Shown: in pieces, positions 27,323 to 55,859 of the stretch
Layout: each line of letters opens with the position of its first letter
Position numbering within the stretch: position 1 is the first letter of the stretch
Assembly (NCBI GenBank): GCA_015680905.1
Contig: CM027380.1
Span: 49,202,001-49,266,000, forward strand
Origin: Coptis chinensis
Taxonomy: Eukaryota; Streptophyta; Magnoliopsida; Ranunculales; Ranunculaceae
Direction: 5' to 3'
Length of the DNA stretch: 64,000 bases
Position numbers and translations under genes: made by a program
The notes under the pieces: model-generated
The model's input: the letters and a program-made list of their open reading frames with translations, nothing else
Told to the model about the DNA's origin: nothing
Databases searched by the model: none

Positions 27323-28099
27323 GACACCACTCCTAAACAATATTTTGCTTGTCCTCAAGCAAATATGAGAAATAAAAACATATAAGTGGCAAAAAATGTG
27401 GTCATAAATAATCTCGTTTCGCAGAGTGCGATTGTATTAACCATATGCAATAAGGCCTTAAACCACTAGGAATTCCCTAGTGGACGAGTTATAGCCTCGT
27501 GAGAGTTTTCTAGAGAAGATACTCACAAACTTCATTTATATTACAACGACTAAAAGATAAAAATAAAATTTCTTAATTAATCTCAGATATCTATACATCT
27601 CAATAACAATATAATAAGAATAATACTTTTGAAACCTAAGCTAATGCACACATAATAATCAAATTATCTAAGGATACACATGCATGCTATGAACTATGTT
27701 ATGAAATGCAATGGTAGGTCCGTTTCTGAAACTTTTGGAATAACATCCTTAAGTAGGTCTTCACAATTTGTCAAGAAAAAAATACTCTGATTTTTTCACT
27801 CAAGTTAGCTCACTCCAGTGTGTAGTGGGTACACATTTCCTCACAATCTCCATGACGTCCAAAGTAGCCGAGGTCGATCAATCACATCTACCACTTACTA
27901 TCACACCAAATTAATCCTAATTGATCTATAAGTCTTTATTAGGTGGTACAGGGCTGAGGGAATGGTTTAAGAAGAAACGGAATGGATATTCAAATAAACA
28001 AGTCTGAGATAATAGGGTCTTCAATTACATGTAACTAGAGAAAACCTTCTTCTTACTTTGCTTCTATACTTAGTTTCCATCCTTAGCCTTTTTATTTTG
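27323..28099 (-). mobile_element. Gypsy 3' internal region, minus orientation
   Basis: On the minus strand this contains GAGGACAAGCAAAATATTG just before the LTR start, a typical polypurine-side leader of long-LTR plant Gypsy elements. It is the inverted relative of 49420-50477 and 57532-58658 (shared CTAGGGAATTCCTAGTGG). It meets a plus-oriented LTR end at about 28100. Confidence 0.6.
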
Positions 28100-33199: not shown

Positions 33200-33224
33200 C
33201 ACTACACCAGAAAAGACGTTTACT

Positions 33225-33560
33225 AACGGTTATATCCGTTACTAATATTTTTACTAACGGTTATATCCGTTAGTTCTGGGGCGTCACTCTCAGTTAGGCC
33301 AACTTTTGTAACGGATATAACCGTTACTGATAATAATATTAGTAACGGATATATCCGTTACTAAAATTATTTGTAACAGATAGCCAACAACCCATGGTCC
33401 GATAAATTTGGCATTTGTAACGGATATAAGTGTTAGTCAAGTTGGCGCGTTTCAATTTCTAGCGGGAAAATAATTTGTTTGTCACGGATATAACCGTTAG
33501 TAATGTATGTGGTCACTTGTTTACTAACTATTGTTTGTAACGGATATATCCGTTAGTAAA
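33225..33560. repeat. CACTA left subterminal repeats
   Basis: About seven copies of an 18-20 bp palindrome, TAACGGATATATCCGTTA and close variants, in both phases. In En/Spm these regions bind the element's own DNA-binding protein. Confidence 0.85.
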
Positions 33561-34310
33561 TTGGAGCCACTAAAAAAAAAAATTCCTGGGTCAAATAATA
33601 TCAAATACAAATTTGGTCAAATAATATCCAATACAAATTTGGTCAAATAATGTCAGATGAGTAGAAACAGAAATATGTGACTGACTTCTCATATTTACAT
33701 GCAATGATATGATGAGTACAAAATTTTCACCAAGGCTGGGCAGAAAAAGGAGCTCCCAAAGCCTTCAAGAGTGGTAGACGTGAATGGACTAAGTCAGGAG
33801 ACTATGGAGAAGCAAATTGATTATTGGACCCTCTCCTTCGCCATCGACGCTTCTTCCGAATTCTACATAGATCTGAAAAGCTCAAAGTCATCTGAATTTC
33901 AGCTCACCCTTTAACATTATAACCTTCACTATTAAAATTATTATAAATACCAACCTCATTACTCTCCATTCTCTACTAGATCTAAGTAAACACAAAACAT
34001 TTAACAGAATGCAAACATAAAACAATTACCCATTCTCTTTGAGGAAATCTAGTATGGTCAATAGCAGTAGCTTCTTTGCACTAATTGAAGCTGCCCCTCC
34101 ATTTCTAACATTCCCAATATTACTGCCATTCATTCCTCCATTTCCAGCCATACTCATCATCATATACTTGTTACTCTCTCACATTTTCATAAAGATCTCT
34201 TACAATGACAAAGATCTCAGAACTCAATAAATCATTTCCCATATCTGTTTTCCCATATCTCTTGCAATGAGTTTCTCACGGAAACAAGACAAAAGTGCAT
34301 ACCCTAGAAG

Positions 34311-34620
34311 CTACAAACATATGCAGCTTGAATCTTTGGTCATCCCCTTGAACGGTGTAAGATTAGTGAGCAGTTCCCTCAAAACTATGGAGAAGCTGTA
34401 GATGTCAACCTTATGATCATAGTGTTTCTTCTCTCCACGTAGAAGTGGGGTTGTGCTACACAACTGATTAAAATAGAGAAGGTTGAGCATAATATGCTTT
34501 GTGATTGACATATTTATTTCAATTTTCAAAAGCAAACAAGTAGTCGGCAGAGGAGATACCTCGGGGGCCATCCATCCTGTAAAGTACCAATCTCGATGAG
34601 ACATTGCTTCAAGACATACC
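34311..34620 (-). pseudogene. Raf-like Ser/Thr kinase fragment, C-lobe exons (captured by CACTA)
   Basis: Two exon-like pieces on the minus strand. The first (about 34620-34562) has VKSAGPSR, where a family member would have VKLADFGLAR, so the DFG magnesium-binding motif is lost; then SHRDWYFTGWMAPE and a donor GAG|GTATCT. After an intron ending TTTTAATCAG at about 34469, the second reads STTPLLRGEKKHYDHKVDIY then SFSIVLRELLTNLTPFKGMT. A one-base shift follows; the next residues (QAAYVCSF) and a stop end the homology. These match the Raf-like MAPKKK group of plants (HT1/STY-related). With the exon at 34841-35034 they show a genomic, intron-bearing capture. Not functional. Confidence 0.8.
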
Positions 34621-34840
34621 TCGAGGGGCCGGCCGACTTAACCTTTGTTTGGTCTTACATTATGACACATTACCGTAAAACAACAATCATTTAGCGGTAG
34701 AATTACTCACTTGCATAAACTTGAGCCATATTTGATTATTATATTTAAAATTCAAGTCGAAATAGAAGGCGAGCAATACACGGATAAACTATGAAAGTTT
34801 TAAATTTGTTAACCTCATAAAATCGAGGAAAGAACTTTAC

Positions 34841-35034
34841 CAGGCTTCAGTTCACGGTGAATGATGCCATTAGAATGTAAGCATTCCATCACTCGAGCAA
34901 TATCTAATGCAAAGTTTAGAGAGGGGCAAATCTGGACAGCTTGGACGCATGTCCCACAGATACTTTTTAAGTGAACCACCTTTCATCAGATCCGTGACTA
35001 TTAGCATATATGGTTGCAGAGATGCACCAATAAA
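34841..35034 (-). pseudogene. Raf-like Ser/Thr kinase fragment, N/C-lobe junction exon (captured by CACTA)
   Basis: A 194-bp exon bounded by acceptor GTGACAG|TTTA and donor CCTG|GTAAAG on the minus strand. It reads FIGASLQPYMLIVTDLMKGG, SLKKYLWDMRPSCPDLPLSL and NFALDIARVMECLHSNGIIH followed by RELKP. The catalytic HRD loop is HRE here, a loss of the catalytic Asp. It precedes the C-lobe exons at 34311-34620 in the correct order and strand, separated by an intron. No earlier exons (ATP-binding loop) are found before 35375. Confidence 0.85.
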
Positions 35035-35289
35035 CTGTCACACCACAAAAGCTTATGTCAGTATCAAGAATAATGAGCCACAAAAGCATTGGTCTTTTTT
35101 TTTTTAAGGTAGAACAAAGCACATTGGTCTTTGATTTAGTTGGTTAACACCTATCTCCCATTTAGGTGTTGAGGAATTCTACCAAACTATTCTGATTTCT
35201 GATTTGGATGTCACTAGTGCCATAGGCCATAGCCACCCCTAACCTCCTGACCTTAATAATTAAAAAAAAAAAAAAACTACGAAACCCTT

Positions 35290-35510
35290 AGAAGTGTATA
35301 TATATAGAGCAAATCCTATACAACTTCTTGCATCATAGTATTTTAGGAGACAAACAACTTCTCATCTTCAAATAATGAATCCCTCCAAGAATATTCAGTC
35401 AATCATTCCCTTGTTGTTCCTTTTTCTCTTCTTGAATCCTCTTGTTATCTGCCAACTTGACTACAGTTTTTACGATAATAGTTGTCCTAATCTGTCAAAT
35501 ATTGTCAATA
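35290..35510 (+). pseudogene. Class III peroxidase 5' end with promoter (captured by CACTA)
   Basis: ATG at 35375 opens MNPSKNIQSI then a hydrophobic run (PLLFLFLFLNPLVIC), a secretory signal peptide. The mature start QLDYSFYDNSCPNL is the hallmark N-terminus of plant class III (secretory, haem) peroxidases, with the first conserved Cys. Homology ends at NIVN (about 35509); the distal-His region (FHDCF) and everything after are absent. A TATA-like TGTATATATATAGAG lies at about 35295, 80 bp upstream of the ATG, so promoter and leader were captured too. It is on the strand opposite the transposases. A complete peroxidase is about 330 aa. Confidence 0.85.
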
Positions 35511-35619
35511 GAATGTCCATACTTAAATTCCAAAAGTATTCAGTTATATGTGTGGTATATCTGAAGAGTAAGATGCAATTTATATTTAATTACAAAGTTG
35601 TAGGCTGCATATATGAAAT

Positions 35620-37640
35620 ATAAGTCGTGAACTATTCATTTCTACTCAAAGAAAAACAGTTCCTGGACACTTAGAGATCAATAAATTACATGCATTGTTC
35701 ATTTCTGCACGATTTTAGAAGAACATATAAGAGTCAAGTACTAGGATATGACAAACTCTCACATACATATCCACAAGGTGGTAACTATGACGAATTCAAA
35801 CTGAACTATGGAGAAATGACTCATAAACAATATAAACATAAACATGACACAACCTGATCCAGTGTCCAACTTTTACAACGCCTCAGACATCTTTGACCCT
35901 CAAGGTAACCTAACACACTCCCATCCCGTGGTCCACATGGGTCTAAAATGCGAGGCACAACATGGTCAGCCCCGAGACATAAAGTCGAGACTAAATGTGA
36001 GCTCTAAGCAAGTAAAAGAATCTATAATTAAGATGTCCAACTCTTACCATGAACTGGAAAGAAGCATGAACTACTTAAAAACGGGCGGGATCAGACCATG
36101 TGAAGCTTGTGGGGAGCTGGTGCTGGAGGAGTGACTGAGACAGCAATTCCCAAGCAAGATGAACTTCCTAATATTGGAGAATGCAATAGCAAGATCTCTA
36201 TAAGAAAACATACAGGCTGCTAGAGGTTAGGATGTTGCAATTGCATCACTGCCATCTGCTTCATATATATCTCGAACACCACGACTATCACAGATATACA
36301 CAATGACTCCTTTCTTTAACCTGAATTTGTAAAACAAAAATGGAAAAGTACAAGAAAATGAAAATGAATATGAAAAAAAAAAAACTATGGTTCTAAGACA
36401 TATCATGCATTAAAGTTCATGTATACATACACAACACATGCATGGAAGCTAAGATTTGTTTCTAAGGAATATATCATTAAGCTTACGGATCTTTGCAATG
36501 CCAGCCCTACTGGCAGGGGTTCCGGAGAAGAAGATATAACAACAAGCCCATGGACAACCCTACACACGATTAAGAGCACCTTGAGTACCGATTCGCCTTC
36601 AAAGAAAATACAAAGATACGCCGAGGGAATAAGGTAAACAATTGCCACACTAGATTTTCCTCGGCTTTTTGGGTTCCTTGATGAAAACAAAACTAGGTCT
36701 CCCATTAAATAAACACTATCCACCATTCCTTCATTCAACCAATGAATGCCGATTTCTTTTAACCCGGTATCACGATATATCTTGGCATTTTGTACTATAC
36801 TTCGTGGTTAAGGATATCCCTGTCTTGCAAATGCACGGAACCTCGGCTCCTTCCCTTTTGCTCTTTCTAAGAAAACCTCCACAACAAACATGTTCGTTTC
36901 TGATTCCATTCTCCTCATTAGCTTGTTTAAATTTCAATGCAAGTATATAGTTGTAAGGTTGAAAAGTTTGTTTCTTCGATGTCATAGTGCGAACTAACAA
37001 AGAATTTTGCCTTATGTATCAACATTATATATTTTCCAGTGTCTAATTGCAACAAATAAAAACTAAACAAAATCAATCAAACCACAAAAAACATAGATAC
37101 CTTTGATAGATCAATGTATTAAGTATCAGGAAGGAACATTTCTACGACTATTATGAGACGCACCTTTGCAAACCGTTTTCAAACTAGCGATACCGCTTCT
37201 CCCCAAGTGCAAATGCAACTTCGAAAACCTCTCCCCGCATATTCAATTCTACAGAATCACATTCGGCTTCGCAATAAGGTTTTATGATATACTGAATAAC
37301 GGAATCAAACCTATCCATTTGGCAACATCCATTCCATCATGGCCTAGATATTGAGATTTAAGTTTAGGAGAGAAATTAAACCTTATCTAGTTTTTCTTTT
37401 TTTTTGGATAGTTTCAACTTTATTCTCTAATCCCTTAAATTCCCCATTTCCTGTGAAGGTGGGAAAGGAACCCAAACTCCCAAGTCTCGACCGGTGAGAC
37501 CACGACACACTTTCACAGTAGACCTTAACTAGATTTATCTACAAATAACATATAATTTCCTGCATTTCACAACTGTATAATTATCACAGAAAGCAACGAT
37601 TTGTTCCATATAAAGTGAATATTAACTCATTAACTAAGCA
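35620..37640. other. CACTA interior with unidentified exon-like pieces
   Basis: The minus strand at about 36331-36236 reads LKKGVIVYICDSRGVRDIY and EADGSDAIATS then stops, after an acceptor-like AAATTCAG. A further piece near 36510 reads GTPASRAGIAKIRK. The plus strand 35844-36134 is open but unrecognised. These may be further captured exons. No family named. Confidence 0.3.
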
Positions 37641-37644
37641 TCAC

Positions 37645-37732
37645 CTATATTTAGCAGAGTGAGGATCTTGATCAAGGTGGTATTGGAGGTAAGATAAATC
37701 TTGGACATCGGTATAGTAGTCGAGGTTAAAAG
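37645..37732 (-). pseudogene. GPN-loop GTPase 2 (QQT1-type) exon (captured by CACTA)
   Basis: An 88-bp exon bounded by acceptor TTTCAG|CTTT and donor ATAG|GTGATG on the minus strand. It reads FNLDYYTDVQDLSYLQYHLD then QDPHSAKYR, a highly conserved segment of GPN2, which helps assemble and import RNA polymerase II (QQT1 in Arabidopsis is the relative). It follows the exon at 37842-38013 in the same order and phase as the family. The next expected exon, with IEDYSLVNF and the NGY region, is not found downstream. A gene fragment with introns kept, not a retrocopy. Confidence 0.85.
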
Positions 37733-37841
37733 CTGAAACATAACAAACAAAAGAATTAACAGAGAGATGCAGTACTTAAAAGAATGAACGGCGCTTTAAT
37801 TTGTCACTAATATTTAACTAATTAGAAGTGCTTTACCACAC

Positions 37842-38013
37842 CTAGCTTCCCAAAACTCTCAATGAGATCGATCTTAGACAAGACATTTATGTGAGGGAGT
37901 TCAAGATGTAACATGATTGATAATGAGAGAAGCAATGCGCTAACATATTTCGGGGTCAAATAATGTAAATGTAAATGAGAAGCCAAATAAAGCTCTCCCT
38001 ACTGAAAGAAGAG
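37842..38013 (-). pseudogene. GPN-loop GTPase 2 (QQT1-type) exon (captured by CACTA)
   Basis: The minus strand reads [20 protein letters not shown] then [16 protein letters not shown] up to a donor at CTAG|GTGTGG. This is the GPN2 segment with the GTPase guanine-specificity motif (SKID, the N/TKxD box of the G4 motif). The part before KYVS is decayed; an acceptor-like TTTCAG near 38014 precedes it. The P-loop and GPN motif exons are not in the window. Together with 37645-37732 it represents about one quarter of the protein. Confidence 0.85.
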
Positions 38014-38014
38014 C

Positions 38015-39319
38015 CCACATTGCGAAAAGCCAATGTTGTGTTACTAATAACTAATAAGAGAACTAGAGACAAGCTCAAGAGCTAAAGAAGGTTACAAGTA
38101 ATTGGCTTCTTTACGATACAACTTCTTTAGTCCTTTAGATCATATTTATATAAACACGAAGTGGTTAAGGAGTTAATAAAACAGGAGTTCTTTAAGTATA
38201 AAGGTGATGGGGTCCCATGTTTATTGTGTGCACCAATTTTCTAGTTCAGAAGACATTTTCTCCATAAATTGAAGGGGTATATAGCTGTCTTTGGAAATTT
38301 GGAGAACTAATCGTATAGCAATATACCATGCACAACAAAACTGACATAGAAAGTCTCCTATAAGTTGGTGGTTCCATTCATTTAAAGATTATAATCATCT
38401 CCAGATATGGTTACTGCGCCTTACTGGTAGTCTGGTACTCACTATTCACTAAGTCACTAATGCATCACTTACTATGCGTTCCTAATTACGGTTCATCAAA
38501 CTTGTCTTGATTCTTGATCAGGATCTCGCGATACGAAACCAGGCGAGGAGGGTATGTACTAGTTACATACTGCTTTCATTAGTTTCATATACTAGAAAAG
38601 CCAAAATAATAATAAAAAGAAAAACAGATAGAAGGATAGTATGTACCCGGTATGTTGCATAATCGGAAGTAGCAACAATGGAGTTCCAACATTATGAACC
38701 TCGCATGCATCAAACAATTACACAATCATTAGTGGCAAATAAAAGTAAAAACTTCAAATTAAAATAGCTAATGGAAAGAAGAAGGAAAAAAAAACTAACG
38801 GGGGCTTACGATCCCCCCGGTGACTACTAATTGCTCCAAGCATCTCGTCATCTCTATCCATGTTGCCATCTGCTTTTTTAAACTTAAAATACGAAAAGGC
38901 CTTGATTTCTTTACAACAAGGCAAGTCAAGACATAAAACTAATAAAAAGAATTGACATCTATGTACAATTAAGATTCTAAGTCATGATAACACTAACAGG
39001 TTCCAAGTCCCGGCAACCACAACCACATCAAAGTTTAACGCCATATTTGTTTCTTAAGTTTCCAAACTAAAGCACAAAACCAAAAAGTAGAGCAATCCAA
39101 AAAGATCTAAAACCTACAAACATCAATCATACTTCAATCGCCCATCAAGCCAAGCTATATACCCTCCTTCAACCCACGCGTTCAAAGTTGCATTACCATC
39201 TTGTGGACCGTCATAACAAAATAAACATCGGGAACCAATACTTCATCAATATACACTCTTCTCTCTCCACCAACCAGAATTCTGCCATGACAAATTGTTG
39301 CACCAACATCAATGGACCC
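38015..39319. other. CACTA interior, no gene resolved
   Basis: A ~60-bp segment at 38790-38850 (TGACTACTAATTGCTCCAAG) has a relative at 46565-46625 (TGACTACTAACCGCTCCAAG), an internal duplication in the CACTA. On the minus strand it could be a small exon. Nothing else recognised. Confidence 0.4.
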
Positions 39320-40948
39320 TTAGCAACCGCGACCAAACTTATCTAGTAATGTGACTCTAGAACATTTCAAAGCGACCCAAAAGCAGGGGGTCAAGTTCGA
39401 GGAGTTCTTTGGAGAATGGCGTTGAGCAGAATTTGAACCAAGTTCAGTTCTAGGTGTAGTCACACCCATATGTGCTTCGGCATTGGCTGTCACATTATTA
39501 TTGCATAGTTGTTGTTGAATGAGAACCTGCGATGGAGTAGATGATGCAAGGATATTTTTTATGTGTGGATCAAGTATTAACAACTCTAACCATTACCACT
39601 AATTGCAAAGAAAAAATTGACCTTGAGCATTGATTTGACCTCAGACATGTCTCCATCGACCTTTGATTTAAATGAAGCCATGTCGGCCTCGACCTTTGCA
39701 ACTGATGTAGTGGCCATCTGGTTGATTAAATCATTTGCCACAGCAGCATGTTGTAGCTGCTTTCTAGTAATATTAGAACCAACTCCACGGACACGGTTCT
39801 TCTTTTCCTTGCCAAGTACTTCATTCAACGCATCAGAGTCGATGTCTTCAATGTCAGTCTCTCCCTTTCGCTAGTCTTTTCTCGAACCGCTTTCACTTGA
39901 TCCCCGCAAATATATATATATTTTTTAAATCAAATCAAATATCTAAAAATATGTCCGATAGCAATAAAAACTACAGTTAGTTAATAGAAAGAAACAAAAT
40001 TTCTACTCACATATTTTTCACGAGCACTTGGCAAACCGAACCATCCGGCGTTCACGGCCCTTGCACCGATCATCTACCGAGTCCTTTTGCTTGAGGGTTT
40101 TGTTCTTGCTACAAGCAAATAATCAATGCTTAGTAATAGTGCTAAAAGAAAGACAACTAAAAGAAAATATATTAGTCAACTAGCTAGTTAATTGTTTTGC
40201 AAATTTTATACATGATCAAAGCGACATTTTATTTCAAAAGTGATACGTACCAGCTCCTTATGTATTTGGGAAAAGGTTTTCCTCCCATTAGTAGTACCAA
40301 TATCATTCATTGCCCTATTGTTTGCATTTTTTGCATTTCTTTCCTTTACTTTAGGTTGAAGCTCATAGTCAACAAAATCAACCCAAAGAGTTGGATTAAC
40401 ACCAGGTGGGCAGTTTGCCTTAGCTGCTTCAATGCTTTCAGAGTTTGCCAAGAACTTTGACCGATACGTCGCTTTCACAGTCCTAAGTTTTTGAGGATAA
40501 TTCGTCTCAACCCATGGACGAGCAGCAAAATTGGATACATTAAATTCATATTCCTTCTGTCATGAGTAAAGTGATTGATAAGAAAAAAATATAGTGAGAT
40601 ATAGATGAAAGAAAGGTAGAATTGACCAAAAACAATACAAAAAAAAAATACCGTCAAGGCTTTCCAAATAGCATCCTTAAAGCTATCTTTCACTAGTCGC
40701 CAATCTTTAGTGTTGATCGGGATATGAAGCCTCACTTCATTCCCTATTGCAGTCTTGAAGTTGCTTGCATTTGGTCCAACAATTTGGCCATTAGACCACA
40801 CCTCAACAAGCAACTTCCCAGAGGGACCTCTTAATTGTGCCGTTTTGGATGATCGAGAACTACATTCACCTGTGGGAGAAGATGCATCTGATGCGCTGCG
40901 GTGTGCATTTGTATTACCTGACTCCATTATTAAAAAACAACCTAACAA
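39320..40948 (-). pseudogene. CACTA second-ORF protein (Transposase_24 / Ptta-En-Spm type)
   Basis: Exon-like blocks run from 40948 to 39320: a basic-acidic start (SASDASSPTGECSSRSSKT, LRGPSGKLLVEVW), GNEVRLHIPINTKDWRLVKD, then YRSKFLANSESIEAAKANCP, NPTLWVDFVDYELQPKVKER and the hallmark NAKNANNRAMND..GTTNGRKTFSQI, and finally VLGKEKKNRVRGVGSNITRK with a coiled tail. This is the family of second proteins in plant CACTA elements, thought to bind subterminal repeats as TnpA does. Introns are likely between blocks. The order and strand after the TNP2 gene are typical. Intactness not established; probably decayed. Confidence 0.8.
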
Positions 40949-41337
40949 TTCCCAACAATTGAAAACATATTATCAAGGATTTCATAATGCTTCAAATATG
41001 ACATATAACAAACAATTATTTAAGATCTTTAAAATGTAGAATAGATAAAGTAAAAAGAAAATAAGAAAAATTAAAGGAAGAACACTATCAAATTAACCAA
41101 GATATCAAAAAATTAGCACCCAAATCTAGTACATAATCATCAAAAGAGAAAACTAGTCTTTTGAACATGTTTTCAAAATTACAACTACACACTACAATCA
41201 TCGACGTGGTTCTAACAATGATCTCAAATTAGGTTGTTGTGCAAGAGTAGATTGAAAGTCTTCGGGTACTTCTAGCTGGTCCACTTGACTAGTCATTCGC
41301 CTTGGTGAATGTATGACCACCCACCAATCAGGATTTT

Positions 41338-44300
41338 TCAGATCTCTTGAATAGAACACTTGATGGGCTTTTTAGCTATAAATGGCGGTTCATCTAACAT
41401 TTTGTCAGAGCTCTTGAGCCGATTAAAATTTACCATCAATAAGTTAGAGTCTGGGCATAGCTTACAGCCATTGGTCTTATCTTCCACCCTAACCCAGTCA
41501 CAATAAAACACCACTTCCTTGAAATTTGTGTAATCCACCTCTAGTATTTGTTTGATGACCCCATACCACATAGCAGATGCATCGATAGGATTTTTATCTT
41601 TCCTACTTGATGTGAAAGTAGTAATTGCACTCATGCAAACACCACTGTCTTGCGTAAGAACGGTCTCATCATGAGACTTAGTAGAAAATAAATAACCATT
41701 AACGTGATACTTTCGAAAAGTTTTAGCTTTGAACAATGGCCCTCTAGCAAAGAACCACAATTCAGATGAAGTGTCATCATTCTCCAGCAACTACACAAAG
41801 AAAACATAACACAATTCAAAAAGTGTAAATAATATAAAAATCGTATCTTCCTATCCCCATTAAGTAATACCTTATTATATAACCAGTCGATAAAATCTGT
41901 TTGTATCTCTATTTCTGTCTTTGCTATCCCTTTCCTACTGCCTCGGAAACTAGATTGCAAAGACTCGCGATACTCACTACAATTTAACCAAAAAAGTTAG
42001 TATATATCTGTCAATTTATTACGGGGAAATAGACACATGTGAAGAACTAACACCTATAATGATCGTCAAGTCCATCGACTTCCAACCGAAAAAGTAACCA
42101 TCTACGGATTTGTACAAATTGCTCCGACGACAAAATCACATCTTTACCTTCAAACACAGGCCCTTCATCAATATATTCATCATTTTCATCTAGAAACACT
42201 TCACTAGTAGTGCTTTTGTGATTTTTGCGCTGTGGATTTGGAATGTACTCCATTGCATATAATGGACTTCGAGACAAGATCACGACTCTGCAATCGATCC
42301 TTCAACAAATCGTTTGTTACTAGGTATATCTTTGCACTCCTTCATCGACCTATTTAAGCGATAAACCCATGAATGCATTTATTAATTTTATTTAAAACCG
42401 AGACAAAAACAATGGGGATTGAAAGAAGCATAATTTACCTCTCAAACGGATACATCCAACGATCTCTAGCTGGTTCACACATTAATGCCTCGTCAGCTAA
42501 ATGCACAACAAGGTGGATGCTAATATCAAAAAATGATGGTGGAAAGTACTTTTCCAACACGCACAATGCCTCTGCAACCATGTATTTGGCATCTTGGATT
42601 TCTTTTCGAATTACAACTTTCGAACACAATATGTTAAAAAATAAGCTTATCTGGTGAAGAGCTCTCCGCAAATCGGGATGAGATGGAAAAGCATGTTGAA
42701 GTAGCACGGGCAAAAGATATTGCATAATCACATGATAATCATGTGATTTCATTCTGAAACAAACAAGGTGGATCAAGACTCCATCGATGTTACTCAGATT
42801 AGATGAAAAACCTGATGGGAGCTTCAAATTTTTTAAAGTTTTAAGAAAATTCATCTTCTCCATTTTATCTAGAATGAATGGTGCTGTAGGTTTAACTTGT
42901 TTCCCACTTGCAGGGTCAATTTGCATCCACTGATTTCGGTGTATGCCAAGTTCCCTCATATCCTCTCGTGCCTGGTCAGTATCCTTTGATTTGTCTTTCT
43001 TACTAAGGATCGTGTCGAGTATGTGCTCTGCAACATTCTTTTCAGTGTGCATCACATCAATAACATGACGAACTTTATGATGAATCCAGTAAACAAGGAA
43101 AAACAATATGGACTTTCTGTACCATGCCAATGTAACTTCATTACCCTCATTGTCGTTAACCACATTTTGACCGCCTCTCTTCCGCTTTTTACCAGGTTTA
43201 TACTTCACATAACTCAACGTTTGCAAAAGTGCATCACCATTTAATCGTTGTGGAGGAGTTCTCGCTCCTCTTTCTTGCTACCCACTAGTCCCAAGTACTT
43301 ACCGCTCTGAGCGGATGATTACCTTTAAGGAATATCGGTAATCAAGGTATACATTCTTCTGCTAGACTTCAAATATATGGAAGAAGTGTTGTCACATAAA
43401 ATAGGACAAGCTTTGTAACCATGTGTTCGCAGCCCGCTAAGTTTCCATATCTTGGGCAAATCATGGATCCCCACATTAGTATAGCTTTTTAAAGTGAAGT
43501 CTTCTTTTTTGTTCATGTCATAAGCTGGCACTCCTTCCCACAACTCTTTCAACTCGTCATACAAAGGTTCAAGAAAAACATCAATGTCTCCTTTTGGTGC
43601 CTTGGGACCCGGTATAAGCAAAGACAACATCTGAAACTCTGATTTCATGCACATGGAAGGGGAGATTGTAAAGGCCACGATTGATGACAGCCAACAGCTA
43701 TAACTAGTAGATTTGAATGCCACGCGGATTAAACCCATCGGGTTGCAATTGCAAGCCAAACATTGCGTTGCTCATTAGCAAAGTCCGGCCACTTTTCTTT
43801 ACAAATTTTCCAGCGACCGAATCAATTGGATGACGATATAAAGCCACGGAAGTCTACGCTTTCGTGCATGCCATGTCATCTCATGTGCTATCCACGGTAT
43901 ACTATACAACCGCTTAAGTCTTGGAATTAAAGGAAAATGTCTCCGATTGCTTTGTTAGGCTCCTTGGAATTCTTCTTCCCTTACCCCCCTCCTTAACTTT
44001 ATATCTTGGAGCTTGGCACTTAGGACATTCGTCAAATCTTTCTCTGTCTTCCAATATAAGATCTGTTGTTCCGCGCGATGAATGCACGTAGCCTTCATCC
44101 CTAAGTCTTTCAACATCTCCTTCATTTTGGATACTTCTCGGGGGAGTGTGTTACCTTTAGGCAACCATCGCCTCAACAAGGATAAAATCTTGTCATACCA
44201 GCTCGGACCAACCAAATTGCTTCTTTACATTGTGAAGTTCTACAAGTGCGAGAGAGTTGTCTCGGGACCCTCACATGCAGGATACAATTTTTCAGTTGCC

Positions 44301-44792
44301 TTTTTCTTATATTCATAATACCTCTTTCCTAAGTCTGGTTCGGGGAACATAAGGCTCATCAAACTCCGGTCCCGGTGCCATCACCCACAACTCTTTCATG
44401 CAATCCAAAAGAAGAGTCAACAAAGTTTCCCATCCCAATCCGACCTCCCCAATAGTTTCTTCCTCGGTGCCTTCCATCTCAATAGCAACATCACCAATGG
44501 TTGTTTCTCCAATATTTGCAACCATTGGAGGATGAACGGCAATGTTAGATAAGTCCTCACCATGTAAAGTCCATACACAATAGGACTTCTCTATACCGTT
44601 TGAGACTAAATGGTGCTCAACATCTTTATAAGTCAACCAATACCTATTTCGACACTTCTTGCACGGGCAAGGACACTTCTTCCCACCCAACTTCCACTTT
44701 GCAAATTTAAGAAAATCCTCGACTCCCATAGAATAGACTGTGCCGCCTCTTTCCTTTTCACTCATCCATTCTTTGTTTATTGGCTCAGACAT
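41338..44792 (-). pseudogene. CACTA TNP2-type transposase gene (TnpD-like), decayed
   Basis: Blocks in order on the minus strand. 44792-44313: transposase-associated domain (INKEWMSEKERGG, KKCPCPCKKCRNRYWLTYKD). 44215-43955: KEMLKDLGMKATCIHRAEQQ. 43759-43325: core TNP2 (LSLLIPGPKAPKGDIDVFLE, LYDELKELWEGVPAYD, LSGLRTHGYKACPILCDNTS). 43226-42435: HKVRHVIDVMHTEKNVAEHI, then VVHLADEALMCEPARDRWM. 42283-42047: linker. 41960-41338: DUF4216 (KYHVNGYLFSTKSHDE, DSGVCMSAITTFTS, YCDWVRV). The usual protein exceeds 1000 aa. Between 43325 and 43226 the conserved NHPLR/RTPPQRL linker is present but out of frame and includes a stop, so at least one frameshift has broken it. It would have cut at the element's ends. 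Confidence 0.9.
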
Positions 44793-44859
44793 TCTATACT
44801 ATATTTAGACACCAAGGGAAATAATGATCAGCATAAATAACAGACAATTAGCTATCCAA

Positions 44860-45473
44860 GTACAACCAAAAGCAAGAAACAAAGCGGCATCATAAGATTC
44901 AAATGCAGGTAACATTGTTTTCAATCCATAAAGGCAAAGAATGGTTAGAACACTAAATTTTGCAGGTGTATAGCTCGTCGCTTAATGCAACATATAATTT
45001 CCATCATATCTACAACTCAAAACTAACAAATACTATGAATATATGTCATGCGCCCATATTTTTTCAGAATGAAAGAGCCACTAGGAAATTGTATTTGTGA
45101 GTACAGATGCTACTTTAGCACTACCTATTGATTTGATTTATTCTAGTGCAAGGCAACTAATGAAATTAAATATGCACCAACCTAAAAGAAAATGTCTAGC
45201 CTAGTTATATTCTTATGTCCTCAACAACTAATTATCGCATTTCAAGTAGTATGTAATCCTGGAGCTATGTACATAACCAACAAAGAAGCAAACTTTTATA
45301 ACCACATCTATTAAACCAATAAAGATTAATATTTTACCTCAAAATTAGACTTAGCAGCAACAAGTGAAACTTTTGAGAAAATCAGTCAACCCTTCAAAAA
45401 AGAAACATATCAAGTATGAGAAAATAAATTCCAGTAGTTGAAAAGATGAGTCAAAGAAAGAAACCCCCAACTA

Positions 45474-45552
<79 letters not shown>

Positions 45553-48200
45553 ACTTTTATTTATAGAAAGAACAATCATAACACCAATATGGCCATCCCC
45601 ATACTGTTATTATCCCTCTCCCTTTCATATAAACCACCTCCACCTTATCTCCAAGTAGGAGCAAATGTGCAATAAAGCCCAAGTACACCTTACGTCTGTA
45701 AGAGCAAGACACCTCATGCTACAATTAGACCCTATATGCAAATGACCAGTCCTACCTTAGGACTAAAGTGTTTCCCCTCCCCCACCCCCACCCCACACAC
45801 ACACAACTAACTTTAGTAGTAAATGTATTCCTTCTTTGCCGATTGATTAGAACTACTACAAACATCGTACTTTGGGGCCAAATTTTCAAAATGAACCCAT
45901 TGTCTGGATCGCTCAATTTGTGGATATAATAATTATAATATTCTCCTATTCTATCTAATGACAACATCTTGTAATCTTGGACATCATCTCACACAAAAAT
46001 CATTAAAGCTATGTGATTACAAAGAAGGAAATCATGATCTTAGTCTGAACACCCATACTCATCATCGACCAAAACGCAAATTAAACAAAATTAATTTCGA
46101 AATTAGAATACACTTGCCAGAGAAATGAAGAAAATACAATAAAAGCACAAACTTACAGATTAGAAGAAACTTTTTGTAGAATGCAGATCTGATTTGTGTA
46201 CCAAACACATGGGTTATGGATTTCACCTCTTCAAGAGAAGACTTGTAGTATTTCAATAAGATCTGCAGAACTGAATCAGTAGTGCGTCAGTACTGGTTCA
46301 AGCCTTAAAGTCATTTTTCATCTTGCTTCTCTATAAAACAAAATTACTCAACCGCCACTATTATTATTCATTACATGCAAAACATAATGAAAAACATTTT
46401 TTTTTTGTCAAATTCAAACAACCAGATGAACACTAACGGTCCCTCTTTGAGTTCATTAATCAACTAACAATCAGAATTCCATATCTTACAACAATGAAAA
46501 ATAGTAGATTCTTTGTCTAATAGAAATCCCAACATTAACTAATAGAAAATAGAAAGAACAAGAAAAAAAAAAACTAACTAGGGGAAACGCATCCCCCGGC
46601 TGACTACTAACCGCTCCAAGTATCTTATACCATTGACCAGTTCCATAACACACTCTGTTCACGTGTAAGAAACCACCACATCATCAACAACTTTCATTCA
46701 AATGAAACATGTAGAACTTAATAAGGTAACAACTTATCACCATGTGTACAAGGTACACTAGTTAATAAACCATTTTGTTATACAAAAAGTCAATAGGAAC
46801 TAAGGCCAACACAATCTCATCCAAATCACTTATTCACAAACGTACTTTTTGTACATTATCAATTCTAGATAATAGATTCCAATAGTCCAATACCAATGAT
46901 ACTTAGATAAGTCCAAAAGAAAATAGTACCAACGAATTCTTGCAACTAATTAAATAGTTAAATTAATAAATCCATAAACCGAGGGGTATTACATAGGGTG
47001 CGCTTGTGTCACTATGATTAACACACTAGTCAAGAACAATTCTTAATAAATAATTAGCTCGAAATAGTAACATGGATTTGTATTAGACAAATAATTGACT
47101 ATTTTTCATTGGAAAACAGATAGAGGAGCTTACCAAATTGAACTTCCAATTTAGAGCCTAAAATGATGCATTTCATTCAAACCTAAAATCTTAGAGAAGC
47201 AGAGGCCTTGTCTAAGTCACACGGTCAACTCACACTCATCCTTTGAAAAGAAAAAGGAAATAGAAAGAGGGGTAAAACTAAAGTATAAATTCAACTAAAA
47301 ATATGACGGGCGAGAATCGTCAAAGGCGCTTTCGTTGTTTCTAGTCATTGTCTTGCGTGTGGTACGCAAAGGGATGGAAAAAAGAAAAATTGAAAAACAT
47401 TTCCTAGTTGAACTGTTTCTAGAATTGTTCCAATGAATTTAAGAATTGCTGCAATTTTTGCAAATTTAGCTAAAAAATCAAGCATTTTCCGACGAGAACA
47501 AGCACAATGCACCATCAGTAAAATTTCTAACTACGATAATACAATAGAATACTGATGTAACAAAGAATAAGAGCCAATATGTCTTACTAATAGCATATAG
47601 AGTAGAATACCGACTTAAGAAACAATGAGAGGGAATGTGTCATACAATTGCCAATTCATATTCTTCTCCCTCTGCGCAATTTAGAGCTTATCCAGAATAA
47701 ACTAACCCTTCAATGGAATTCTGCACATAAACATGTTTACAAACAACCAACAAAAATGAGAGAGAGAGATAGGTAGGTATCGGTAAAAAAGCAACCTTTT
47801 TTTTACTTTTCTATGATTCAACTACTTTTTGAGATTTCAAGCATTTAGATTAGCCAACATTCACTTAACCGGCATAGAGACCCTTTGAATTCAAGCACAC
47901 AATGTGTTACGCAATCTACAATCTGCACAACCATGCACCGCGCCCGCCATGCATGGAGGAAACGCACTAACTACTGATTACTAAAGGAAAAGGTTGCATT
48001 TTCATACATTTCGACCACGGTTTACTTATCCATCGAGGAAAAACAAGCGCATGAATGAATTGAAGTCCAACTTTTTTCATAACGTCGGCTTATTGAGTTC
48101 AAAACAGCTATTTACTTCAAAACAAGAAATTTAAGAAACATCAGTGTTTTCTGAGCATTTGACAAGATAGAGCTGAACTTGCACAGTCAAGATAACAGCC
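44860..48200. other. CACTA interior upstream of transposase, no gene resolved
   Basis: AT-rich. Contains a (TA)n run at 45475-45548 and a duplicated ~60-bp segment at 46565. Likely long 5' non-coding region or introns of the transposase unit, plus 3' flank of the captured ATP-synthase gene. Confidence 0.45.
45475..45548. repeat. (TA)n microsatellite
   Basis: About 74 bp of TA dinucleotides inside the CACTA. Confidence 0.95.
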
Positions 48201-48232
48201 CCAAACAAACCATCGCTCCAGCACTCCTCGAA

Positions 48233-48400
48233 TCACCTCTTGTGCCTCTGCACAAAGGGCGAGTTCTTCTTGTCCTCCTCGGTTAGATTAAGAGTCATCT
48301 TAGTAATGATGGCCCCAGTGACAGCAAATCCAACCAAGAAAGGCCAAGTTCGCTTCCACTCTCTCTTGAAGAAAACAAGCCATGGATCAAATTTCCTCAT
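48233..48400 (-). CDS. Mitochondrial ATP synthase 6-kDa subunit, complete, inside CACTA
   Basis: A 55-codon frame on the minus strand: MRKFDPWLVFFKREWKRTWP, FLVGFAVTGAIITKMTLNLT, EEDKKNSPFVQRHKR, then TGA at 48235-48233. It matches in length and sequence the plant-specific small subunit of mitochondrial F1Fo-ATP synthase (MtATP6, about 55 aa; Arabidopsis At3g46430 type). Residues about 20-36 form one membrane helix; the N-terminus is basic and aromatic, and the C-terminal ENSPFVQRHKR-like tail is conserved. It has no stops or shifts. Upstream (48401-48660) is a plant-like 5' leader with AACCCTAGCC; downstream lies a plausible 3' UTR. It lies about 560 bp inside the right terminus of the CACTA, on the transposase strand. 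Whether it is expressed or redundant with a genomic parent is unknown. Confidence 0.9.
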   Translation of the reverse strand: MRKFDPWLVFFKREWKRTWPFLVGFAVTGAIITKMTLNLTEEDKKNSPFVQRHKR

Positions 48401-48665
48401 TTTTTTTCTCTCTCTTGTTTGCGATGAGAAAAAAAAAAAAAAAAAAAAATCGAGCAGAATCTATATTGAGACTGAAGAGGAAATCGAAATCGAAAAAAGA
48501 AGTCAAGAGACTAAACGGTTCGTCGACAATATTTCACAACCCAAAAGAGAAAGAAGAAGATGCGAAGGAAACCCAAGATCTTTTTCCGGAAGGCTAGGGT
48601 TCTATAGAGAGTGTTTTATTTTATTTATTTTTTTGGTTTCCTCTTCATAAAAAAAAAGTGTTAGC
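48401..48665 (-). promoter_or_regulatory. 5' leader of the captured ATP-synthase gene
   Basis: The minus strand shows AACCCTAGCCTTCCGG, TTCTTCTTTCTCTTTTGGG and a homopolymer T stretch just before the ATG. AACCCTA-type leaders (telo-box-like) are common in plant genes for mitochondrial and ribosomal proteins. The CACTA subterminal repeats begin about 110 bp further out. Confidence 0.5.
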
Positions 48666-48774
48666 GAACAAAAGAAAAAAAAAAAGGGGAAACAGAGTCG
48701 CTGATACCAAATATTGCCCGGCTTTTGATATTTCTTTTCATTTTAATTTATTTTACCTTATTTTCCTTTTTACT

Positions 48775-48930
48775 CACGGATACAAGTGTTACTCTATCCT
48801 AACATAATCGTCAAAATATTATTAAATATTAATTCCGGACTTTAAGTAACGCTTGTGGTAAGACGTAACGGATATATCTGTTACTTAATAAGTAACAATT
48901 ATTTCCGTTACTAATGGAAAATTTGCACTG
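48775..48930. repeat. CACTA right subterminal repeats
   Basis: Degenerate copies of the same unit (CACGGATACAAGTGTTAC, GTAACGGATATATCTGTTAC, ATTTCCGTTAC) just inside the right end. Confidence 0.75.
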
Positions 48931-48960
48931 TTACAAAATAGCTATTATGGTGTAGTGTCT

Positions 48961-50477
48961 ATATTAGTTATATTAAGTATATTTCTATATTTCTTTCTTT
49001 CTGTAAACAAATTTCGAAAAGACCAAAAATATTTTTCTGTTTAGTACTAAAAGTATTGTTTTCCTTTTTCTATGATAAACAAATGGTTTAGAAGTCTCAT
49101 TATAGCAAATAGAGTAAAGTTTCGTTCTTCGAACTTAGACTAATATACATACAATAGTTTCTGCATATTTTAATGAATGGCATGCATCCGCATCATTGAT
49201 TGTATATAGCAGTAAGTTTCTGAGACCAAGGTTGGAACAATTAAGTTCCATATCCGGTGAGAATCTAGCCAAAAGCCTCATCTGAATGATTATTGAGTGA
49301 TGACACAAAGGATGTCCAGATAGAAAGATAACACGTCCACTTGCTTGGTCACCACGCCATATCCTAGGAGAGAATTTAGGCCATTTTTAGATTGATATAG
49401 CCAAATAAACGTTAAAAACCCAAAAAGATAGTTTTTCCTCTAATTACCCCCCTGAGCCTCCATCAATTTCTAAAAACCTTTTTATTTCTTCGCCATCAAT
49501 CCCTGAACCATTACAACACACAATAAAAAGCGTACCTAGCTGACGAGTTGAGAATTGGATGAACAATAAAAAGAAAAGAGAAGGCTTTGTACAAAAACAT
49601 AATAGTTAGAAGCTTCAAAAAGGAAAGAAAGAAAAAGAAATAAAAGAAAGAAAAGATTTAAAAATCAAAATCTCCCAAAAGTTCAAAATCAAAAGGAGTC
49701 GATTTCAAAAGAAACAAAAGCAAAGTTAGAACTCCCAAAAATCAAAATCATATGGAGTCACAAAGCCAAAGAGCTAAAAAAAATTGAATCAGAAATTCAG
49801 AAGCAAAAGAACAAAACAAGGTTCTTCTCTAGCCCTTATCTTTTATTTCTAAACCACAACCTTAGCCCCGTAATTCCTAATAAAAAACCTCTAGCTCAAC
49901 TAGAAATAGGATGGTGTGATAGTAAGTGGATATTGTGATCAATTGACCCCAGTTTCTTTGGACGTCATTCGTGTATGTGAGTAATATAAGTGCCCTCTAC
50001 ACTTGAGAAAACAAAACTTGAGTGAATCTATTAGAGAGTTGTGATTGCAACACATCACTGTGAGAACCCACCTTAAGGACACTCTCTAAGAGTTTCAGAA
50101 ACGATTCTGCTTTTGCATTTCACCGCTCATGTTTTGCATGTTTATCTTTAGATGATTAAATTACTATGTATATGTTATTCTGAGTTCAAAGGAGCTTTTC
50201 TTTATTCCCCCGCTAACGAGATGTATAGACTTCTGAGAATAACAAGGAGACAACAACCTTTGTACTAGATAGAGGAAGTTTGTGAGTACCTTCCATTGAA
50301 AACTCTTACGAGGCTTAAGCTCGTCCACTAGGGAATTCCTAGTGGTTTAAGGCTTTGATGCATATGGTCAATGCAATCACACTCCGTGAAACGAGACTAG
50401 AATAAGAAATCACACATTTGTGATCTTAGGTTTTTCTTTCTCTTCTTTGCTTAAGGACAAGCAAAATGCTGGGTAGT
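48961..50477 (+). other. 3' internal region of the old Gypsy element
   Basis: No gene. From about 49415 it is closely related to 57532-58658 (shared ACCTAGCTGACGAGTTGAGA, CACTAGGGAATTCCTAGTGG) and inversely to 27323-28099. It ends with AAGGACAAGCAAAATGCTGG before the LTR start. Confidence 0.6.
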
Positions 50478-51438: not shown

Positions 51439-51959
51439 CCGCCCCCTCTTTGTCATGCGAACAAAGTTCACATGGCAAAGAAGAGAAGAAAAAGCAAGGA
51501 AAAAATGGAATAAGAAAAAAGTGAGCGTAGTGTATAACGAAGTATCATGCGAAAGGAAATGATAGAAAAATGGAATGTCGAGAAAAATGCCTGAAATATT
51601 GTGTGTTAAATAATTTTAAACTAATTTATATGAGGCTGCAATGTAATTAATTGATAGAGGGGGAAGCAAGAAGTAAAATAGGTGACAAAAAATCGATAAA
51701 GAAAACCAATTTTTAACCCGGATTGGCAGATCTAGTATTAATAGAAGTATGGAAAAAAAATAGATTCCTTTCAAGAAAGTGGTTGGGCTGTAGTGGCACA
51801 CCCACTAGTTGGTGAGAGGGGTGAACAATGTTCGAGTCTCCACATGGACAAATTAATTTTTGAATTTCAAAGATTCCCAAACCTGGGCTATTAAGCCGGT
51901 CCAGTATATTGAAAATATCCGGGTTGGATAAGGTAGGAAGAATTTAAATCTACTCAGTC

Positions 51960-52208
51960 GGTGGTTGAGGCAAGAAGGAGATAATGTAACGAATTTAAAT
52001 CCGGATTAGGAAGTGATAAGCACGAATTTAAATCCGGATTAGGAAGTGATAAGCTCCGTAACTTGGAACAGTGGACGAACACAACAAAAACATAACTCGC
52101 GAAGGAAAAAAAATAATGAAGATTAGGAAGTGATAAGCTCCGTAACTTGGAACAGTGGACGAACACAACAAAAACATAACTCGCGAAGGAAAAAATAAAA
52201 TAATGAAG
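51960..52208. repeat. Short tandem duplication inside Tat-like element
   Basis: The phrase GATTAGGAAGTGATAAGCTC followed by CGTAACTTGGAACAGTGG occurs twice (about 52035 and 52120), about 85 bp apart, and a third partial start precedes it. Confidence 0.8.
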
Positions 52209-53530
52209 CTGATGAAAATTTTCGTTCGGAAAAATTCTCGTAGAAAGATCGGTAGAAAGATCGGCAGAATACCTTAGAAAAAATAATGACGCTGACGAAA
52301 ATTTTTGCTCGAAGAATTTTTCGTAGAAAGATCGGCACAATGCCTTAGAAAAAATAATGAAGCTGACGAAAATTTTCTCTTGGAAATTTTTTCGTAGAAA
52401 GATCGGCACAATGCTTTAGAAAAAATAACGACGTTGACGAAAATTTTTGTCGAAATTTTTTTCGTAGAAAGATCGGCACAATGCCTTAGAAAAAATAATG
52501 AAGCTGACGAAAATTTTCGTTCGGAAAATTTTGGTAGAAAGATCGGCAGAATGCCTTAGGAAAAATAATAATGCTGACGAAAATTTTCGATCGGAAAATT
52601 TTTCGGAGAAAGATCGGCACAATGCCATAGAAAAAATAATGATGTTGACGAAAATTTTCGCTCGGAAATTTTTTCGGAGAAAGATCGGCACAATGCCATA
52701 GAAAAAATAATGACGCTAACGAAAATTTTTGCTCGAAAATTTTTTCGTAGAAAGATCGGCACAATGCCTTAGAAAAAATAATGAAGGCGGCGAAAATTTT
52801 TTTCGGAGAAAGTTTTTCAGTAAAAGATCGGCACAATGCCTTAGAAAAAATAATGAAGCTGACGAAAATTTTTGCTTGGAAATTTTTTGTAGAAAGATCG
52901 ACACAATGCTTTAGAAAAAATAACGACGTTGACGAAAATTTTCGTCGAAATTTTTTTCGTAGAAAGATCGGCACAATGCCTTAGAAAAAATAATGAAGTC
53001 GAATTGACGAAAATTTTAGGTAGAAAGATCGGTGAGAATGCCTTAGAAAAAAAATAATAATCTTGTTTAAAATTTTTCGTCGGAAATTTTTTGGGAGAAA
53101 GATTGGCACAATGCCATAGAAAAAAAATAATGATCTTGTTAAAAATTTTCACTTTCGGGAAAATTTTCGGAGAAAGATCGGCACAATGCCATAGAAAAAA
53201 ATAATGATTGACGAAATTTTTCAGAGAAAGATCAACACAATGCCTTAGAAAAAATAATGAATTTGACGAAAATTTTTAAGCTCGGAAAGTTTTTCAGAAA
53301 GATCGGCACAATGCCTTAGAAAAATAATGAAAATTTGCGAAAATTTTCGCTTGGAAAATTTTTCAGAGAAAAGATCGCACAATGCCACGAGAAAAAATAA
53401 TGATGATCGAAAAATTTTTAAACCGGAAAATTTCTCGGAGAAAGATCGGCACAATGCCATAGAAAAAATAATGACGTTGACGAAAATTATCGCTCGGAAA
53501 ATTTTTCGTAGAAAGATCGATACAATGTTT
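52198..53530. repeat. Tandem array, ~20 copies of a ~70-bp unit
   Basis: The unit has the form AATAATGAAGCTGACGAAAA, TTTTCG..CGGAAA, then GTAGAAAGATCGGCACAATG and CCTTAGAAAA. The AGATCGG mark recurs about every 69-76 bp from 52245 to 53517. The copies vary by small indels and point changes. The many short reading frames here are a by-product of the repeat. It lies between the coding remains and the 3' LTR of the Tat-like element. Confidence 0.95.
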
Positions 53531-53862
53531 AAAAAAATCGGAAGATAGTTAACCGAAAGCGCTAGCGAAACAAATGCAGATTTTGAATAAGAAAACGAAG
53601 ATTTAATAGAGCGACCGTAAAACAATTGACAGAGGCAATTGATTAGGTAATTGTGTGAATGTAATATCATAGAGCTAAAACTTCTTTTGATGAAAAATAA
53701 AAATAAAGATGGGTTTGCTATTGAATATTGTTGTTGTGTCAGATAACATACCTGCGGAAAACTGACAATGTTGTAGATTTATAATTGAAATGAAATAGAA
53801 CGAGACGCCCCCATGTAGATATAAACACCTCCAATGCGTACTTAACTTTGCAAAATTAGGCT

Positions 53863-54594: not shown

Positions 54595-55715
54595 TCATTC
54601 GAGTCTTTGAGTGATAGAGATGCTATCAAATTGTCGAGCAAGACTATGTATCAAACTAAGATAAGTCGCCATACGCTCATCTCTTGCTTCAAAAGACCCA
54701 CCAAACTGATTTGCAACAAGGCGAGAATTCGTGTATAACTGGAGCTTTCGCGCCCCCAGTGTCAAAGCTGTTCTCAAGGCACAAATGGCATCCTCATACT
54801 CGGCTTCGTTATTTGAAGCGGCGAAGCCAAGTCGTATAGATTTCCCAATCTTTTCTCCGCCGGGTTTAACAAAAACACATCCAATTCCCGACCCAGATTT
54901 ACTATGGGAGCCATCTGAGTAAACAATACATAGGTCAATGGGTTTAGGAATTGCGTTTTCAAGTTGGTCTTCGTCGCCCCCAGTTATTGGCGGCAGAATG
55001 TCTTCCATAGATTCTTCCTGGCGCAAAAAATCGTCAATAGGAGAATCATCAATCGGAAAATCAACTACCAAAGAAGCCAGAGCATGTCCTTTTTCAGTAG
55101 TACGACTTTCAAAGACAATGTTATATGCATTAAGATAACTTTCCCATTCGGCTAATCTGCTTGATTCTTGTGCATTACGAAAGATCTTGCGTAAGGGATA
55201 CTCAGTATAAACTCTGACCAGCCTCCCTTGGAAGTATGGTTTTAACCGGCGAGCAGCATGAACCAATGCAAGTGCAATTTTTTCCATCTTTGAATAACGA
55301 GACTCAGCTCTAGTTAACGTCTTACTGATAAAAAAGATGGGTCTACCATCATCGACGAAAAGAACAGACTAACAGCTTGAGTTGTAGCTGCTAGGTATAT
55401 GCCAATAGGTTGACTCGTTGAAGAACTTGTCAATATAGGAGGACTGACTAAGTATTTCTTCAGTTGTTGCAATGCCATATCACAATCAACGTTCCAAGTT
55501 GCCGCCTCCTTTAAAGTCTGGAAGAAGGGATGACAACGATCAGAATATTTAGAAATAAATCTATGAAGAGCGGCAAGCCGACCAGTAAGTCGTTGAATTT
55601 CCTTCTTATTTTTGGGTGATGGCATATCAATAACGGCGTGTATCTGATCAGGATTAGCCTCAATACCTCTACGAGTCATGAGGTATCCCAGAACTTTTCC
55701 AGAAGAGAGGCCCAA
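54595..55715 (-). other. Pol remains: reverse transcriptase end and RNase H (Tat-like Gypsy)
   Basis: Two protein-like blocks on the minus strand. The outer (55715-55314) carries the end of a Gypsy reverse transcriptase with LTGRLAALHRFISKYSDRC and the connection region. The inner (55287-54595) has the Gypsy RNase H end followed by a second, archaeal-type RNase H (IVYSDGSHSKSGSGIG, NNEAEYEDAICALRTAL, YTNSRLVANQF). A second RNase H is the mark of the Tat lineage. Fossil coding sequence; integrase was not recognised. Confidence 0.85.
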
Positions 55716-55859
55716 AATAACATTTGGCAGGATTGAGTCTCATGTTAAGCCTATCAAAAACAAGTTATAGATCGGAAAGATGATCACCCGTATCCTTCGA
55801 TTTAACGACTATATCATCGATATAAGCCTTCATTATTTTTCCCAGCAGATCGGAAAAAA

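Follow-up and report, generated by a model that had tools for sequence, protein, structure and literature searches.

Host gene sequence lying within CACTA transposons has been described for Tgm-Express of soybean, for the Pack-CACTA elements of Arabidopsis, rice and maize, and for Chenopodium elements (PMC8978399, PMC8903248, PMC1947982). The passengers of the Chenopodium elements are situated 5' of the transposase (PMC8978399). A review from 2026 lists transduction, template switching and transduplication as mechanisms, describes the Pack-CACTA route as a DNA-level one and leaves room for an undiscovered route (PMC13317346). Reverse-transcribed mRNA has been proposed to alter CACTA elements in the RNA-mediated intron loss of their transposase genes (PMC4158355), and an ARF6 retrogene lies almost wholly inside a DNA transposon, MER20 (PMC8277862). 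L1-like retroposition in dicots uses a TT|AAAA target, and plant retrocopies with a polyA tail and without a target-site duplication have been reported (PMC4838847).

The locus described here shares features with each of these systems. It lies in a window of 64,000 nucleotides of the Coptis chinensis genome (C4:49202001-49266000; genome size 935.6 Mb), in which a CACTA element holds host sequence, likewise in its 5' region upstream of the transposase. In the available accounts of Tgm-Express, Pack-CACTA and Chenopodium, the passengers are fragments or coding DNA from chromosomal loci, whereas the passenger in the Coptis element appears to be a whole processed mRNA copy with a full frame. The dicot L1-like retrocopies are alike in their TTAAAA target, their A-tail and their mRNA origin (PMC4838847), but here the target is a DNA transposon that then moved, and no target-site duplication was found. 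In the published intron-loss case, the reverse-transcribed molecule is the cDNA of the transposase itself (PMC4158355) and not, as here, a host mRNA. The ARF6/MER20 case differs in being metazoan, and its authors allow repeated retroposition; apart from such a case, their survey pipeline removes copies without introns when the parent has several exons (PMC8277862). A whole retrocopy in a CACTA element with empty-site proof was not found in the literature at the level of titles and abstracts, a search that covered subscription journals thinly. The nearest statements among the published parallels are the transposase intron loss (PMC4158355) and the MER20 retrogene (PMC8277862). The features of the window that bear on the argument are as follows.

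33200..48957, minus strand: CACTA (En/Spm-type) transposon of 15,758 bp, recognised by CACTACACCA terminal repeats, transposase Pfam matches and full-length copies on C2 and C9
33197..33199, no strand: target-site duplication TCT, low side
48958..48960, no strand: target-site duplication TCT, high side
48448..48957, minus strand: transposon 5' end with terminal repeat, subterminal repeats and native leader, delimited by empty relatives
47803..48447, minus strand: apparent processed retrocopy insert of 645 bp with a T-run at the 5' junction and an A-run at the 3' junction; missing from 7 of 7 empty sites, exons joined
48401..48427, minus strand: short 5'UTR of the parent mRNA, by similarity to C7
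48233..48400, minus strand: 55-codon open frame, putative mitochondrial ATP synthase 6-kDa subunit; P8L and V30I relative to the resident gene
47804..48232, minus strand: 3'UTR derived from the parent mRNA, by similarity to C7 (93.4% identity to parent exon 3)
47797..47804, minus strand: A-run of 8 (10 in the C9 copy, 17 in the C2 copy, 6 in all seven empty copies)
39589..44798, minus strand: CACTA transposase genes by Pfam (Transpos_assoc, Transposase_21, DUF4218; weaker DUF4216 and Transposase_24)
35086..35508, plus strand: beginning of a peroxidase gene, comprising DNA upstream of it and a portion of exon 1 (97.4% identity to C4:8367443-8367861)

The element shows the hallmarks of the CACTA class, namely terminal inverted repeats, a 3-bp target duplication and a tnp2-type transposase. 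Its ends in the window are CACTACACCAGAA and CACTACACCATAA, with CACTACACCA at both, and its 5' end is at 48957, given that the transposase genes lie on the minus strand. On that strand, Transposase_21 (tnp2; E 1.2e-34), Transpos_assoc (E 1.8e-20) and DUF4218 (E 6.8e-17) match above the curated Pfam cut-offs, and DUF4216 and Transposase_24 match below theirs; the scan covered 10 of the 18 frame-segments of the element, with 45000-48957 left out. These matches are spread over several separate frames, and small indels between element copies occur there. Pack-CACTA elements are non-autonomous with captured host coding DNA, while this element holds host DNA and still has recognisable transposase genes.

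The first-pass annotation had described an intact gene for a mitochondrial ATP synthase subunit inside a transposon, and its claim that all 55 codons are open is borne out at 48400-48233 on the minus strand. Both the frame and its stop codon are undisturbed, the start codon lies 557 bases inside the CACTA end, and the strand is that of the transposase genes. The frame is more than a product of chance, because it recurs at three further genomic loci, among them an intron-containing resident gene. We assign the 55-amino-acid sequence putatively to the plant mitochondrial ATP synthase 6-kDa subunit; a comparison of the sequence with Pfam, NCBIfam and PDB revealed no significant relative. Three PDB matches to glucose transporters (E 0.5-0.82) were not significant and were dropped. 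Beyond the Coptis genome, none of 31 pattern stretches in viral contigs was confirmed as a relative, plasmids yielded none, and the one confirmed among 149 in genome contigs (L001) was a segment of a 460-amino-acid bacterial frame and thus spurious. Six peptide strings searched in literature texts were not contained in any paper. In plants, the 6-kDa subunit is a small, nuclear-encoded F0 protein (PMC4623399, PMC2851662). Arabidopsis At3g46430 is named as the gene for it (PMC4623399), and the reading frame of Jatropha JcMtATP6 comprises 171 bp (PMC2851662); together with rice RMtATP6, these genes are likened to the Coptis frame of 168 bp by size alone.

A protein search of the 935.6-Mb genome, in which all five first-look candidates were scored, identified four loci: the window, C2 and C9, the latter two at 98% protein identity, and a partial match on C7. 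A DNA search with 47803-48427 (again five of five candidates scored) recovered the intronless copy at three loci and, on C7, three pieces of exon size, and no free-standing retrocopy elsewhere in the genome. The C7 pieces are the exons of a resident gene at C7:73578456-73587182, separated by two GT-AG introns, one of 87 bp after exon 1 and one of 8,023 bp after exon 2. Exon 1 ends with ...CTAACCG|GTGATA and the 87-bp intron with ...TTTTACAG|AGGAGG; exon 2 ends within the last codon with ...CACAAGAG|GTATTA, and the 8,023-bp intron ends with ...TTTTTGCAG|GTGATT. The stop codon and the 3'UTR reside on exon 3. In the window copy, the C7 exons are joined exactly and both introns are gone at the splice junctions. 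Similarity to C7 starts at window position 48427 and stops at 47804, in an A-run that is absent from the parent. Because the C7 counterpart of 48427 lies 36 nucleotides after the start of TATAAATA, the copied similarity appears to begin near the parent's presumed transcription start.

The insertion site itself can be read from relatives that lack the insert. A search with 48233-48957 detected at least 54 family matches, a lower bound on the size of the CACTA family as 40 of 242 candidates were scored. Seven family members lack the retrocopy; at 85-94% identity, six of them match the window from the terminal repeat through 48448 and the seventh through 48456. In all seven, the sequence matching window position 47802 onwards follows at once; in one of them (L021), the two BLAST matches are separated by CGATT. 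The junction reads GATT|AAAAAAGGTTG in 7 of 7, as part of CTTGATT in four and of CTCGATT in three, and the sequence GATT|AAAAAAGG common to all of them corresponds to an L1-like TT|AAAA target site. Since the seven empty copies also carry the leader 48448-48665, this segment belongs to the transposon family; the "plant-like 5' leader" that had been assigned to the gene is thus not its own. A copy of the gene over its whole length within a CACTA element was correctly recognised, while its proposed extent, 48233-48665, needs to be replaced by the foreign segment 48447-47803, comprising 5'UTR, coding sequence, 3'UTR and A-run.

Considering that the copy starts near the presumed transcription start, that the introns are cleanly gone and that an A-run is located at a TT|AAAA site, the insert is, as judged from its structure, one full-length processed retrocopy. 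The target site and the A-run, which precedes GGTTG, suggest that L1-like retrotransposon machinery was probably the source enzyme. This assignment is kept at probable because a target-site duplication is absent and the surplus of the window A-run over the empty site is just 2, with one A templated by the parent. Inspection of the retrocopy junctions by eye revealed no target-site duplication, which weakens the claim of an L1-like origin and leaves that of a retrocopy intact, as some plant retrocopies are reported to be without one (PMC4838847). The 5' junction reads CGATTTTCATCGC in C2, and the window and C9 have a run of about 20 T there. In the window this run comprises 21 T at 48429-48449 (minus strand), the C9 run is similar and C2 has only four T; the run has either grown after insertion or been lost in C2.

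Other copies of the CACTA family do carry the gene, as the first-pass annotation had considered: the genome search found three carriers, the window element on C4 and those on C2 and C9. All three contain the intronless copy in the same CACTA element at one common insertion site and are located at unrelated chromosomal sites. C2 and C9 hold the whole element, with the same first and last bases as in the window. The C9 element is 95.6% identical to the window element in one BLAST match, and the C2 element matches at 95.5-95.6% in two long matches, with a further 465-bp piece at 81% and an extra 2.3 kb inside. This 2.3-kb insertion (at about 4152-6451 of the C2 element, L008) includes a stretch that is 77% like the 5' end of the element, 48957-48649, and is probably a nested, related short CACTA. 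The target-site duplications of the carriers are TCT/TCT in the window, TGC/TGC in C9 and TAT/AAT, with one mismatch, in C2. No similarity was detected between the flanks of the three carrier sites; local scores were 9-14 in 200 bases, as computed with no shuffled control, and the BLAST matches end at the element ends. The dissimilar flanks and the different target-site duplications indicate separate insertions. In unrooted trees of the three carriers and the seven empty copies, calculated from two blocks of about 510 and 106 bases outside the insert, the carriers group against the empty copies (ultrafast bootstrap 91, FastTree 0.91). All carrier copies share 5 substitutions relative to the parent over 604 gap-free aligned bases, and on this count the retrocopy event is recent.

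These observations are combined in the following scenario. As the parent exons, the splice junctions and the empty sites show, reverse transcription of a spliced C7 mRNA gave rise to a copy that entered the 5' leader of one CACTA element a single time, at a TT|AAAAAA site. The filled element then transposed, perhaps mobilised in trans, as we infer, and the retrocopy is now carried by CACTA in three independent insertions. It would be a passenger young enough to stay open, possibly transcribed from a transposon promoter and presumably without function. A single retroposition followed by transposition accounts for the empty sites, the shared insertion site, the grouping of the carriers and their separate flanks. 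We regard this sequence of events, including the young, open passenger, as very probable.

The same element appears to have acquired further host sequences. The frame at C4:8367443-8367861, to which the peroxidase fragment corresponds, scores 27.1 bits for the Pfam peroxidase family (cut-off 27). The fragment is present in the three carriers and missing from several other family members, in which 6-8 bases separate the flanking matches; it looks like a second, DNA-level acquisition by this element. The segment 37273-37951 is 98% identical to C13:411072-411743 and C2:21782426-21783104 and 95% identical to C2:113396073-113396742, with an ATP_bind_1 (PF03029) match below cut-off at its start, and is probably another recently acquired gene fragment. 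Protein-kinase matches occur at 33700-35080 (PF00069 just below and PF07714 above cut-off). Eleven other genomic sites contain this segment over its whole extent at 91-94% identity; by its distribution, it is an older passenger of the CACTA family. The CACTA element is surrounded by long repeats at 49883-50476, 58060-58575 and 27333-27939, two in the same orientation and one inverted, which are probably LTR retrotransposons; polyprotein-like frames were seen by eye at 54595-55739, between the two same-orientation repeats. In the right-hand retrotransposon region, long frames on the minus strand at 51954-53778 consist of a single short peptide repeated many times in slightly varying form.

Sequence variation within the frame is low. 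Over the four sequences, two coding changes are observed: V30I (codon ATC) sets all copies apart from the parent, and P8L (codon CTT) is found in the window copy. These amount to two replacement and no synonymous changes at 33.7 synonymous sites. Both are of the C-to-T/G-to-A type, in CG and CTG contexts if the parent base is ancestral, and would fit a pattern common in methylated transposon DNA. Among the three copies, 1 of 168 columns varies in the frame versus 45 of 410 in the 3'UTR (Fisher P 2e-6; 3.5e-6 with the parent); the 3'UTR changes are clustered and indel-rich, so that this contrast may be exaggerated by errors of assembly or by unusual mutation in the region. When changes within 10 bp are merged, the frame has 1 and the 3'UTR 15 (binomial P 0.03), or 2 and 15 with the parent added (P 0.09). 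Across the whole element, a fast three-way alignment shows 670 of 15,412 columns variable and 259 gap runs, a gap count that depends on the aligner and differs for a careful alignment; the frame is less variable than the rest of the element (Fisher P 0.011). Under a Poisson model, three frames free of indels and stops are expected with a probability of 0.043 if element-wide rates apply and of 0.0002 if those of the 3'UTR do, the latter figure treating every indel as disabling. At the same time, no more than one variable base is seen in 19% of 14,913 overlapping 168-column windows (each with 150 or more comparable columns) and in 51% of the 2,905 windows free of gaps, and the synonymous changes expected are 1.5 at element-wide and 3.7 at 3'UTR rates, with none observed. 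Selection could account for the low variation of the frame; gene conversion, a locally quiet region or neighbouring sequence rich in errors would suffice as well. Because variation is uneven across the element and the expected synonymous changes are missing too, low variation does not specifically indicate protein-level selection, and the missing synonymous changes do not fit protein-level selection alone. Purifying selection was therefore dropped as an explanation, given P values of 0.03 (merged) and 0.09 (with the parent), 19% of windows as quiet as the frame and synonymous sites equally unchanged, and we lean towards no selection on the frame. Two stretches of about 500 bp, 45457-44958 and 35457-34958, have 0.6% variable columns among the three copies compared with about 4% elsewhere, and reflect either recent exchange between copies or later insertions. 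The first-pass annotation had offered recent capture or selection as alternatives. The five substitutions shared relative to the parent favour the former, and the replacement nature of both coding changes speaks against the latter; with a near-identical resident parent on C7 and two replacement but no synonymous changes, the description as a passive passenger leans towards being correct.

Several other origins of the insert need to be weighed against a retrocopy that entered the element directly. The peroxidase fragment, apparently taken up as DNA, suggests that DNA-level capture of the Pack-CACTA type, in the course of gap repair or from two adjacent elements, would be within the history of this element; for the insert at 47803-48447, such a capture with later loss of the introns would nonetheless have to explain why the loss of both introns follows the splice sites precisely, why the parent's promoter and intron sequence are absent and why an A-run ends the insert, and we rate it as highly improbable. 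The idea of a gene in a transposon, as first proposed, holds; what had not been anticipated is that the exact absence of the introns points to the insertion of a processed retrocopy and not to capture as DNA. It is also very unlikely that the retrocopy was formed elsewhere in the chromosomes and later captured by CACTA. Its source may since have been lost, but the genome search, with all five candidates scored, detected no free-standing retrocopy, and the flanking transposon sequence is contiguous in all seven empty relatives; with such clean empty sites, a prior chromosomal retrocopy is unnecessary. That the frame in the window is the resident gene, with transposon ends nearby by chance, is hardly conceivable: the target-site duplications match, the whole unit is repeated at C2 and C9, and the intron-containing C7 gene together with the empty sites rules this reading out.

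A further alternative accepts the retrocopy and its transposition and concerns its present role: transcribed from the CACTA promoter, the copy would be a functional mobile retrogene for the 6-kDa subunit whose frame is held open by selection. The three open frames, their low variability relative to the 3'UTR and the small Poisson probabilities of undisturbed frames are in its favour, and so is the orientation of the copy, in sense behind the native leader. Upstream of its start codon, no ATG occurs until 48648, and a leader transcript begun after this position would offer the frame first. Against it stand the two replacement changes, the many equally invariant windows in the element and the position of the insert inside a candidate intron. 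A candidate donor, CAG|GTTAGT, is present in the leader of 9 of the 10 copies, only the window copy being without the donor consensus (CCGTTTAGT in place of CCAGGTTAGT), and a TTTAT...AG acceptor-like sequence follows the insertion site in 10 of 10. In the window, the candidate donor is located at 48516 and the candidate acceptor at 47721. Measured from where the donor motif begins, the acceptor is 146-180 bases away in the seven empty copies and 783-812 in the three carriers. As donor and acceptor-like sequence bracket the insertion site, the retrocopy may be intronic and perhaps spliced out. On balance, a functional mobile retrogene is unlikely, and the fuller proposition that the retrocopy took over the CACTA promoter, is translated and is kept in frame by selection while the transposon drifts is slightly less likely again. 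If the retrogene does work, the disturbed donor of the window copy (CCGTTTAGT for CCAGGTTAGT) would favour retention of the frame in the mRNA.

In the available literature, gene capture by CACTA elements is a DNA-level process and usually concerns fragments, and the retrocopy described here points to another route within one genome. By combining empty copies, filled copies and an intron-bearing parent, it can be followed how a whole mRNA copy would enter a DNA transposon and then travel with it, and how a cut-and-paste element would thereby gain a complete open frame. Surveys in which copies without introns are filtered out when the parent has several exons, as stated for one metazoan survey (PMC8277862), would miss such cases. 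With its three copies, Coptis chinensis offers a natural experiment, on a small scale, on the expression and retention of passengers of this kind.
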